Shown here one piece after another: positions 7,460-15,143 of a DNA stretch of 20,364 nt. The stretch covers positions 1 to 20,364 of the IMG/VR virus record IMGVR_UViG_3300013006_000154. One strand, 5' to 3'. Position 1 is the stretch's first letter; every line of letters starts with the position of its first letter. A program made the position numbers and the translations under genes. The notes beneath the pieces are model-generated. The model was not told where the DNA came from. It made no database searches and worked only from the letters and a program-made list of their open reading frames with translations. Origin of the DNA: a virus.

Positions 7460-7706
7460 AATTGTAATCTATTAGGTAAGTCATAAATGTAAATATCTCC
7501 CACGCTGATTTTTCCGTAATTGCGTCCAACTTTGTTATGTCGCGTCCGCAGGCTTCCATAAAAAGATGATACCAACCGTAGCGTCCCAACACTTGGTTTA
7601 GGTTGTCTCGGTCTTCAATTGCTCCGTCAATTCCTGTGTCAACTTCTTCACCTCGTTCTCCAAATAATCTAGCGAAGTGTTGCTTAGTTCGTTGAGCAAA
7701 GTCGAA
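7422..7706 (-). CDS. -1 frame extension of the tail assembly chaperone (gpT-like)
   Basis: An open stretch in the -1 frame relative to the 194-residue gene, without its own usable start: the frame opens after a TGA a few codons before the slippery run and its only ATG (7559-7557) is internal. Reading from TTC at 7706-7704 gives 94 codons to TAG at 7424-7422. The sequence is plainly protein-like: FDFAQRTKQHFARLFGERGE, a linker, then RYGWYHLFMEACGRDITKLD and WEIFTFMTYLIDYNYVERTK. The Y-G-W-Y...GRDITK pattern recalls downstream parts of tail chaperone fusions in other long-tailed phages. A -1 slip on the T9 run would fuse it to the first 159 residues of the 194-residue protein, giving about 253 residues. 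It runs 38 bases into the next gene. Confidence 0.72.
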   Translation of the reverse strand, partial: FDFAQRTKQHFARLFGERGEEVDTGIDGAIEDRDNLNQVLGRYGWYHLFMEACGRDITKLDAITEKSAWEIFTFMTYLIDYNYVERTKLQRAHR

Positions 7707-8182
7707 AAAAAAAGCATCGCACCGTTGAATTGTTCAAGCGTCATCTGCTCAACATAGCCTTCAACGAGTTCTCTGTTTTGCTTGCTGTGTGGTACAATCG
7801 TATACTTCGAACTAACGCGTTTGTCGATAGGTCGGTAAAGCGTTCCCATAATCTTGACCATGTTAGTAGAAACGTCCGCTGCCCACGTTGAAATGTCCGC
7901 GTACTCGCCCATTGAGATTGAGTAAAGGTCAGGAATAAAACCAAAGTCTTTGTCTTTGATTGTAATCGTCTCAAAGAACTTCGCTGTTTCGTTTGCGAGT
8001 GTTCCTTCGAACGCTGCGATTAATGTCGGCAAGTGTTGGAAGGGTATCTGCTCAGCCTGTTCTTTCAGTAGGTTACTAATACTAACCAACTTGTCGATGT
8101 CGTTCTTCGCGCTGTGGTAGTCAACGTATTGCTTGACGCTTATGCTTGAATAGTCAGCTGGTATGCTTACTTTTATGCTCAT
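7598..8182 (-). CDS. Tail assembly chaperone, 0-frame product (gpG-like, 194 aa)
   Basis: A 194-residue, largely helical soluble protein, starting MSIKVSIPADYSSISVKQYV. Its body (VKQYVDYHSAKNDIDKLVSI, RPIDKRVSSKYTIV, and a late helix around NGAMLFFSTLLNEL) resembles proteins that I recall upstream of frameshift products in Bacteroidota phage tail regions. The role inferred is the abundant tail chaperone that coats the tape measure during tail building. The key support is the T9 run at 7705-7713, lying in codons 157-160, and the start-less -1 frame after it. Unframeshifted translation continues 35 more codons to TAA at 7600-7598, ending in a charged QELTEQLKTETT tail. Unusually, the gene is separated from the tape measure by six structural genes, whereas in most phages it is next to it. 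Confidence 0.68.
   Translation of the reverse strand: MSIKVSIPADYSSISVKQYVDYHSAKNDIDKLVSISNLLKEQAEQIPFQHLPTLIAAFEGTLANETAKFFETITIKDKDFGFIPDLYSISMGEYADISTWAADVSTNMVKIMGTLYRPIDKRVSSKYTIVPHSKQNRELVEGYVEQMTLEQFNGAMLFFSTLLNELSNTSLDYLENEVKKLTQELTEQLKTETT
7703..7714 (-). promoter_or_regulatory. Slippery sequence for -1 ribosomal frameshift (C-T9-CG)
   Basis: On the minus strand the coding frame reads CTT TTT TTT TCG (Leu157-Phe-Phe-Ser). The nine-T run (7713-7705) contains TTTTTTT, a classical X XXY YYZ heptamer on which both tRNAs can re-pair after a one-base backward slip. The -1 frame is open right after it for 94 codons. This is the arrangement known from gpG/gpGT of lambda and equivalents in many long-tailed phages. 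No strong downstream stimulatory hairpin was seen; the best is a 5-base stem (TTGCT/AGCAA on the plus strand) near 7680-7699. Confidence 0.7.
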
Positions 8183-8227: not shown

Positions 8228-8383
8228 CTACGAACCGCAATAAAGACACCCTTCGTCGTCGTCGTCGATTGTGTTTGCTTCTTCGTGTACGCGTATGGCT
8301 TCCATGTGTACCTGTTCCTTCGTCCATTCTGGATGAAACATTGCAATCTGTGACCGCAAGAAGTTTAATTTGTTTTCGCTCAT
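8228..8383 (-). CDS. Small protein with acidic run and CxxC end (51 aa)
   Basis: A 51-codon gene read from ATG at 8383 to TAG at 8230-8228. The start lies right behind TAAGGA, an unusually good ribosome-binding-like sequence for this window, though close to the ATG. The product begins MSENKLNFLRSQIAMFHPEW, is helical, then has four consecutive Asp (a GAC repeat) and ends GCLYCGS with a CxxC pair. One CxxC alone cannot make a full zinc site, so dimerisation or a structural role is possible. It is the first gene after the operator-like array at 8412-8488 and is followed 45 bases later by the tail chaperone gene. Function unknown. Confidence 0.65.
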   Translation of the reverse strand: MSENKLNFLRSQIAMFHPEWTKEQVHMEAIRVHEEANTIDDDDEGCLYCGS

Positions 8384-8411: not shown

Positions 8412-8488
8412 TTTGTCGCAAAAATCTCCTATACTTGCGACAAAACCACATTATAAAGTGTCACAGTTTTTCAAATAATTGTGACAAA
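8412..8488. promoter_or_regulatory. Array of four alternating operator-like half-sites
   Basis: The 114-base gap between two minus-strand genes holds four related ten-base sites: TTTGTCGCAA (8412-8421), TTGCGACAAA (8435-8444), AGTGTCACAG (8457-8466, 7 of 10 to the consensus) and TTGTGACAAA (8479-8488). Orientation alternates, so they form two inverted repeats (a perfect 10-base and a 7-base one), and centres lie 23, 22 and 22 bases apart. Regular spacing near two helical turns on one face suggests cooperative binding of a dimeric regulator. It stands before 8228-8383 and the tail chaperone gene. No clear TAnnTTTG promoter was found inside; TATAAT occurs on the minus strand at 8455-8450. The regulator is unknown. 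Confidence 0.55.
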
Positions 8489-8497
8489 CATTTGCCA

Positions 8498-8644
8498 TTA
8501 ATTGTCTTGTTCTGTCTTTTGTTTGTCGGCGACCCGATTATGTTCTTTTTGCATATTCCTCGCCTTGTTCAAGATAGCGTTCCACTCGAACTTGTCCTTC
8601 GGGGTGTTCCACAGTTCTTCGAACATCCAGTCGAGTGCGTTCAT
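8498..8644 (-). CDS. Small helical protein (48 aa), unknown
   Basis: A 48-codon gene. Its frame is open further upstream to an ATG at 8683, but the ATG at 8644-8642 overlaps the stop of the 54-residue gene as ATGA, the junction type used throughout this block, so the shorter form is preferred. The product, starting MNALDWMFEELWNTPKDKFE, is amphipathic and charged, with the pattern DWMFEELW...WNAILNKA, and ends in a lysine- and glutamine-rich polar tail. No Cys, no membrane segment. Function unknown. It is the last gene before the operator-like array. Confidence 0.6.
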   Translation of the reverse strand: MNALDWMFEELWNTPKDKFEWNAILNKARNMQKEHNRVADKQKTEQDN

Positions 8645-8805
8645 TTCGATTTGATTTCTCGCACGTCCCAAAACATATCGCACTCCCCGTTTTTGATTGG
8701 TGTCTTCATAAAGAAAGATTGGTAGTTATTTTCCTTCGCGAGGAAGCGAAAACAATTGTCTTTCTTATCACACCACATACCTGAGCATTTAGTTATATCA
8801 GCCAT
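8641..8805 (-). CDS. Cys-rich small protein starting MADITKC (54 aa)
   Basis: A 54-codon gene from ATG at 8805 to TGA at 8643-8641. The product begins MADITKCSGMWCDKKDNCFR and continues to KTPIKNGECDMFWDV. The cysteines at residues 7, 12, 18 and 42 (C-x4-C-x5-C-x23-C) are well placed for a single zinc site or two disulphides. I recognise the start MADITKC, the C-F/Y-R segment and the closing GxCDMFW as a small family recurring in Bacteroidota phages; no function is known to me. The gene begins 2 bases after the stop of the 81-residue gene and overlaps the next gene as ATGA, so it is translated in a chain with its neighbours. Confidence 0.8.
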   Translation of the reverse strand: MADITKCSGMWCDKKDNCFRFLAKENNYQSFFMKTPIKNGECDMFWDVREIKSK

Positions 8806-11828: not shown

Positions 11829-11858
11829 TTGTGTATTTAAAAGTTTAGCATATATTTG
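11829..11858 (+). promoter_or_regulatory. Bacteroidota-type promoter for the early plus-strand genes
   Basis: TTG at 11829-11831, then 19 bases, then TATATTTG at 11851-11858: a full TTG-N19-TAnnTTTG match. Transcription would start near 11865, giving an untranslated leader of about 30 A/C-rich bases ahead of the ATG at 11894. It faces the promoter-like element on the other strand at 11880-11887. Confidence 0.7.
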
Positions 11859-14381: not shown

Positions 14382-14617
14382 ATAAAGCAATTTACAAAAC
14401 TCCGTTCGGTCGCCTTGTCAAGATTAACTTCAAGACAATGAAGAACTTCAAGACAGCGTTACGCATAAGCGATCCGACGGCACGACTTTACGTCACACAC
14501 CCAGAGCGAATGAGAATCAAAGACTTCAACAACATCTGTCTTCATACCGGTCTTTCTCGCGAAGAAGTATTTAGCACCTTTACACCAACCAAATTAATAA
14601 ACGAAGAAAATGACTAA
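14378..14617 (+). CDS. Unknown basic protein (79 aa)
   Basis: A 79-residue basic protein starting MNKAIYKTPFGRLVKINFKT. A basic segment with several Lys and Thr is followed by a helix-rich end (RIKDFNNICLHTGLSREEVF), where TGLSREEV could be the turn of a small HTH. Its start is an ATGA overlap with the preceding gene, and its stop lies 8 bases inside the DnaA-like gene. The family is not recognised. The context, between an HTH-like gene and a DnaA domain IV protein, suggests a helper in replication initiation, which is only inference. Confidence 0.7.
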   Translation: MNKAIYKTPFGRLVKINFKTMKNFKTALRISDPTARLYVTHPERMRIKDFNNICLHTGLSREEVFSTFTPTKLINEEND

Positions 14618-15143
14618 CGAGCAGATTAGACAAGAGATGATTGACATGATTCCTTTCAGGCACATGGAACGCTTCGAAACGCTATGGTTGATGCTAACGC
14701 CACGATACGAAAGATTAACGACGCAGCAAATAAAGATTCAGCAAGAACTGGAGAACGAAAGGGAAATGTTTTGGTCAGCACTCGAAGACATAACGTGCAG
14801 CGTCTTGGGAATACCTTCGCAGCAATTGTACACACCAACGCGACGACGTGAGATTGTAACGGCACGACAAGTGATATTCTTTCTTATACGTCCTTGCTAT
14901 CTTCAGAGTTATGAAAGTATCGGGAAGCACTACGGCAAGGATCACGCGACGGTTATGCACGGTGTAAAGCAAGTTAGTTGGCAAATCGAATGCGACAGGA
15001 ACTACGCAGCCAACGTCGAAAGAATCTGTTACATCTTAAATGATATGGGTTATGCTAAACCAATGAAGTTTTATACTAAATTTGTCGAGCATCTGGAACA
15101 TCAAAAAGAAATCAAACTTAAAAAACAACTTAAAACAAAATGA
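14610..15143 (+). CDS. Phage initiator-like protein with DnaA domain IV (177 aa)
   Basis: A 177-residue protein. After a helical, coiled-coil-like first part (EMIDMIPFRHMERFETLWLM, then QQIKIQQELENEREMF) comes a DnaA domain IV-like DNA-binding region: TARQVIFFLIRPCYLQSYES, IGKHYGKDHATVMHGVKQV (residues 104-122). The D-H-A-T-V-M-H-G signature matches the DnaA DHTTVLHA motif that contacts DnaA boxes. There is no Walker A or B, so this is not a DnaA ATPase; such stand-alone domain IV proteins probably bind the phage origin or recruit host DnaA. The ATG at 14610 overlaps the previous gene by 8 bases; the stop overlaps the next ATG as ATGA (15140-15143). Confidence 0.8.
   Translation: MTNEQIRQEMIDMIPFRHMERFETLWLMLTPRYERLTTQQIKIQQELENEREMFWSALEDITCSVLGIPSQQLYTPTRRREIVTARQVIFFLIRPCYLQSYESIGKHYGKDHATVMHGVKQVSWQIECDRNYAANVERICYILNDMGYAKPMKFYTKFVEHLEHQKEIKLKKQLKTK

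Follow-up and report, generated by a model that had tools for sequence, protein, structure and literature searches.

The type IV toxin-antitoxin system AbiE acts against phages, and its antitoxin AbiEi is also the repressor of the operon; the C-terminal domain of AbiEi alone is sufficient for antitoxicity (PMC3985639). The binding site of AbiEi consists of two inverted repeats of 23 bp, that of Rv2827c of two such pairs. The phage palindromes described here can be likened to these operators of Streptococcus agalactiae AbiEi and M. tuberculosis Rv2827c, i.e. to inverted 23-bp repeats in the abiEi-abiEii promoter that sometimes stand as two pairs in tandem, by layout rather than base by base (PMC7319586). 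The operator-like sites of the phages, however, stand alone, without operon or promoter box. A closer counterpart is found in the DUF6088-AbiEii operons of Bacteroidota, called AbiE by PADLOC, where the palindrome is identical in 28-29 of 31 bases and tandem pairs occur too. Yet the host copy overlaps a -7 box and precedes the DUF6088 start, while the phage copies do neither.

Palindromes and their surroundings in the window

The window, i.e. the whole stretch of 20,364 nucleotides that was analysed (IMG/VR record IMGVR_UViG_3300013006_000154), derives from a freshwater phage; no relative of its DNA was found among GenBank phages. Direct reading of the window confirmed the four alternating half-sites of the original prediction, TTTGTCGCAA (8412-8421), TTGCGACAAA (8435-8444), AGTGTCACAG (8457-8466) and TTGTGACAAA (8479-8488), with centres at 8416.5, 8439.5, 8461.5 and 8483.5 and spacings of 23, 22 and 22 bp. 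The half-sites make up two palindromes, B (8412-8444) and A (about 8457-8488). Thus the 23/22/22 phase arises because two palindromes of ~33 bp lie in tandem, not from a helical array of four sites. The features of the locus are as follows.

7598-8182, minus strand: conserved gene of 194 aa, PHROG 32199, unknown function; used for collecting relatives
8228-8383, minus strand: 51-aa gene MSENKLNF..., the first gene downstream of B, 29 bp away
8412-8444, no strand: palindrome B, TTTGTCGCAA-AAATCTCCTATAC-TTGCGACAAA, putative orphan operator of the TGTCGCAA class
8446-8460, no strand: short imperfect palindrome CACATTATAAAGTG between A and B, from the inverted-repeat search
8457-8488, no strand: palindrome A, AGTGTCACAGTTTTTCAAATAATTGTGACAAA, operator-like, TGTCACAA class with a 12-nt spacer
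8489-8530, minus strand: segment X, CAAACAAAAGACAGAACAAGACAATTAATGGCAAATG in gene direction, common to other phages and overlapping the 3' end of the upstream gene
8498-8683, minus strand: small upstream gene of the MNALDWMF family, an optional cassette

The arms of B are a perfect 10-bp inverted repeat with a 13-bp spacer, and B is the sole perfect short-spacer inverted repeat with arms of at least 10 bp in the window. A has a 7-bp perfect core within an imperfect repeat; its arms match fully in relatives, e.g. L010. In first-order shuffles of the gap a perfect 10-bp repeat occurred in 127 of 20,000 sequences, which gives p ~0.006 for B alone, and recurrence in relatives settles that the sites are real. 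Both palindromes are predicted to fold as hairpins (z -2.1).

The gap is flanked by small genes on the same strand, a 61-aa gene ending at 8498 and the 51-aa gene starting at 8383, for which a PHROG search gave no match. The label 'chaperone' previously given to the 194-aa downstream gene was unsupported, its PHROG family being without known function. A search for a canonical Bacteroidota promoter in the gap found none, and inspection of A and B revealed no overlapping -7 box (TAnnTTTG). Neither a promoter consensus nor a terminator was found at the site. Elsewhere in the window, a canonical Bacteroidota promoter (TTG-N-TAnnTTTG) lies at 11829-11858 on the plus strand ahead of the rightward early genes, and the product of the plus-strand gene at 14610-15143 has the C-terminal DNA-binding domain of DnaA (PF08299), which makes it a possible replication initiator. 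No recombinase was recognised among the window proteins searched.

Distribution of the sites among phages

The 194-aa gene as a query yielded 80 loci on viral contigs, and the rows examined were the window and 79 loci. A and/or B was present upstream of the gene in 36 of the 80 rows and missing from 44. On the gene tree this distribution required 16 parsimony changes, at least seven of which were forced by well-supported branches. The position relative to the 194-aa gene varied from about -200 to -890, in either orientation, within a hypervariable series of same-strand small genes in changing combinations. In L028, L067 and L078 the B site lay within the coding end of the MNALDWMF-family gene, and the short palindrome CACATTATAAAGTG recurred next to B in L012, L011 and L106. 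L149 and L085 have a common left flank with B in opposite orientations. Altogether B (GTCGCAAGTATAGTAGATTTTTGCGAC) and its inverted form (reverse complement GTCGCAAGTATAGTAGACTTTTGCGAC), which are one base apart, occurred in 33 and 41 stretches, respectively. In L040, L044 and L055 both arms had changed jointly from TCGCAA/TTGCGA to TCACAA/TTGTGA.

In relatives with the same layout the A-B distance was 44 bp in every pair except L066 with 29 bp. Spacings of 56, 79 and 90 bp between palindromes in other phages show that the regular phase is not general. B was also detected in other phage families, e.g. between terminase and VRR-NUC, and a relative of the window's terminase is missing from some of the carriers, contigs of 114 and 119 kb among them.

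PeSLs of T4-type phages are mobile cassettes of an early promoter and a stem-loop terminator at the borders of shuffled small genes. They share with the present sites that short palindromic elements border shuffled small genes; the phage sites here differ in that they are without promoter or terminator and that the palindrome has an identified host counterpart. A mobile hairpin of the Rickettsia palindromic-element type was also considered, but the identity with a host operator explains the data better.

The general palindrome TTTGTCRCAA-N~13-TTGYGACAAA is present in full in B and with a 12-nt spacer and mismatches in A. A search with TTGTCRCAA-N12/13-TTGYGACAA found at least 119 stretches of viral contigs compared to 4 for a composition-matched control palindrome. 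Placement, based on simple ORF calling, was between same-strand genes at 43 of 84 viral sites, inside ORFs at 24, between convergent genes at 5 and elsewhere for the rest. Arm covariation of G-C/A-T was seen in 75 of the 84, and a -7 box on either strand in 49. The strict site occurred exactly once per record in all 35 phage records. Two cultured phages have the site or a close form, Tenacibaculum phage pT24 and Maribacter phage Panino (PP540027, 67807-67837), where it lies in a tRNA cluster. In L250 (96-198) a covariance model identified a phage tRNA gene with the anticodon loop TTGTCTC, in which the AbiE-type operator palindrome forms the long variable arm. By eye, the arrangement at the sites of L212, L225, L238 and L239 resembles this arm, and in L245 the site is inside or between tRNA genes.

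Further palindromic elements were seen in these contigs. In L278 (2935-2995) three operator-like palindromes are adjacent or interleaved (TGTCCAGT..ACTGGACA, TTGTCACAA..TTGTGACAA and TGTCGCAA..TGCGACA). In two different phages a GIY-YIG endonuclease gene adjoins palindrome arrays (L115, 5539-6105, minus strand; L125, 6426-7031, plus strand); in the L115 protein the GIY-YIG domain is followed by a Cro/CI-type HTH domain. Noncoding zones of more than 1 kb in L106 (3321-4826) and L131 (3448-4795) are dense with short inverted repeats common to unrelated phages (TGTCCG..CGGACA, TGTCAG..CTGACA, AGATG..CATCT and TTTTCCAC). Some of these may be operators of further regulators; the TGTCCG..CGGACA array element had no host match in 395 genomes. 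L131 also has three parS-like sites (TTTCACGTGGAACA / TGTTCCACGTGAAACA) at about 3815, 4687 and 4741. DnaA-box-like repeats (TTTTCCAC) are found near the site in other phages and none at the window site, and a replication origin was rejected.

The host counterpart in DUF6088-AbiEii operons

The exact B core had no match in GTDB genomes. A search with the arms only found at least 117 stretches, overwhelmingly in Bacteroidota, and most were located directly before a start codon reading MxSIExK..., the gene being DUF6088 by Pfam. With a profile from these genes, a DUF6088 ORF was detected within 400 bp at 74 of the 123 bacterial sites among the matches listed. The other 49 had no DUF6088 detected near; some of them are in other phyla and are probably chance matches. 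About 2% of the sampled genomes carried the site, and 23 of 149 sampled genomes of the host class had a DUF6088 over the cut-off.

In the reverse approach the DUF6088 family was searched independently of the site and the region upstream of each gene was examined. Most strong members had a palindrome of ~27-37 bp at 8-26 bp before the start codon, which makes it very probably the operator of the family. The arms varied by lineage (TTGTCRCAAAT, TTGTAACAAAT, TTTCACAAA and TTTTGTCAAACA; in more distant members TGTCCAGTTT or TTTGTCAAGTA), and other or unclear repeats preceded DUF6088 in L469, L470 and L473. All 65 host sites displayed G-C/A-T covariation of the arms, and 58 of the 65 operators overlapped a sense -7 box (TAnnTTTG). 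In 58 of 59 cases DUF6088 was followed by a gene with the KGGTS motif of AbiEii, and PADLOC named the pair AbiEi (2e-70) and AbiEii (6e-101). The predicted model of DUF6088 (pLDDT 95) had AbiEi 6y8q and Rv2827c 1zel as top PDB fold matches, i.e. it matches the AbiEi repressor fold of S. agalactiae and Rv2827c. Host operons also have palindromes in tandem, with the same or a different arm class, at distances of 41-57 bp; two neighbouring palindromes were seen in L372, L350, L396, L409 and L413. The pairs suggest cross-regulation between AbiE paralogues.

On a scoring matrix built from 75 host operators B reached 40.9 bits, within the host range of 32-52 and with -14.2 for the next best site in the window. 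A scored 14.0 with one gap, compared to -8.7 for the next best and a shuffled maximum of -1.3. Of 31 positions, B shares 28 with the operators that precede DUF6088 genes in L350, L446 and L347; the consensus of the B group shares 29 with those in L350 and L446. The A-B spacing equals the 44 bp of the host tandem in L350. On the other hand, window A and B do not overlap a -7 box as an AbiE operator would. No DUF6088 ORF was found within 400 bp of any of the 114 viral sites among the matches listed, and even weak profile similarity to AbiEi or AbiEii was lacking among 65,666 ORFs of viral loci. Because adjacent abiEi and abiEii genes are thus absent, the viral locus is not an AbiE system. PF19570 was absent from 35 whole phage records that have the site either as such or in its A or B form; as a control, the same search had matches in 16 of 20 Bacteroidota genomes.

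A dimer-type regulator very likely binds the inverted repeat. Among the candidates originally put forward, the match to host operators favours a host factor over the phage's own ribbon-helix-helix or sigma-like protein.

Role of the phage sites

We favor the view, with a probability of about 0.6, that A and B are orphan operators of Bacteroidota AbiEi-type (DUF6088) repressors, which would mainly titrate the host repressor in trans. The phage carries the operator-like sites, but neither a DUF6088 nor an AbiEii gene. During infection a host DUF6088 dimer would bind each palindrome, and the replicating phage genome would titrate or capture the repressor and thereby disturb AbiE regulation. At the level of sequence this is supported by the match to host operators, the patchy gain and loss, the occurrence in either orientation and the placement in ORFs and a tRNA arm in other phages. 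The benefit would be mainly in trans because position and orientation of the site hardly matter; this tolerance, together with the lack of a promoter box and of an operon, argues for a binding site of a host protein that acts in trans. A titration decoy thus appears to be the likeliest role. Some points call for caution. A pure decoy might be multi-copy, yet the strict site occurs once per record, only a minority of the sampled host-class genomes has DUF6088, and A is imperfect in the window. Furthermore, as AbiEi is the repressor of the operon and needs no more than its C-terminal domain for antitoxicity (PMC3985639), its titration could lead to more of both toxin and antitoxin.

The main rival, which we consider unlikely but ahead of the others, is a switch in cis, where a host AbiEi-type repressor would control neighbouring phage genes, in the window the 51-aa gene and those behind it, and these would be switched on once the antitoxin is lost or if there is none. 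B being 29 bp before a start codon, the frequent placement between same-strand genes and the single site per record would fit, as would the sites within tRNA genes or between them (L250, L245 and Maribacter phage Panino), since tRNA is the target of toxins related to AbiEii such as MenT (PMC10435456). However, the sites within ORFs or between convergent genes, the lack of an orientation rule, exemplified by the same slot with B both ways round in L149 and L085, and the missing promoter box in the window are at odds with such control. It is still less probable that the palindromes are linkers or relics which mosaic recombination has moved between phages and hosts and which stay unbound during infection. 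The hypervariable small-gene region, blocks common to unrelated phages and the frequent changes on the gene tree are what this would produce, but the dyad symmetry of the arms is kept by matched changes on both sides, sites in ORFs or a tRNA arm are no linkers, and remnants of host genes were not found.

The original prediction, an operator for a phage-encoded ribbon-helix-helix or sigma-like regulator of a late tail transcript, has become very improbable. It accounted for palindromic sites in a gap within the late operon, yet the site is dispensable, variable in position and orientation and present at other loci, the spacing that suggested helical phasing is kept in one lineage only, and phages without the window's terminase share the site, which matches a host operator instead. 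When 10 genomes carrying the site were compared in gene content with 10 lacking it, no associated regulator emerged, so that no regulator gene is lost along with it; the named gene most associated with the site was the neighbouring cassette, which was not significant. A function as RNA hairpins, be it as terminators or as other RNA elements, has a similarly slight chance: A and B both fold, but there is no U-tract and no Rfam family, both orientations occur, and in hosts the palindrome overlaps the DUF6088 promoter. Least probable of all is a site-specific recombination site of dif/lox geometry. One site per record and inverted arms with an asymmetric spacer are reminiscent of it, whereas the host copies precede DUF6088 start codons, and with about 2% of sampled genomes carrying the site it is no chromosome dimer-resolution site.

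Taken together, the data suggest that phages use the bare switch of AbiE to interfere with or to sense this defence. A literature search found only the biochemistry of AbiE operators and nothing on orphan AbiE operators in phages, a weak negative as subscription papers were mostly outside the search. More tentatively, as a view we hold with somewhat less than even confidence, unrelated Bacteroidota phages may carry DNA-only elements for counter-defence or sensing of AbiE, namely bare operators, one per specificity, that would capture the antitoxin-repressor and are placed wherever tolerated, be it intergenic, in frame in genes or in the variable arm of a tRNA. Should AbiEi bind to the sites, ~33 bp of DNA would be enough for a phage to interact with a defence system without any protein, and gene-based searches would miss this route of counter-defence. 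The phage sites then provide a sequence handle for how AbiE senses infection or is blinded by it, and the search for known operators of defence operons as orphans in phages may be applied to other toxin-antitoxin families.
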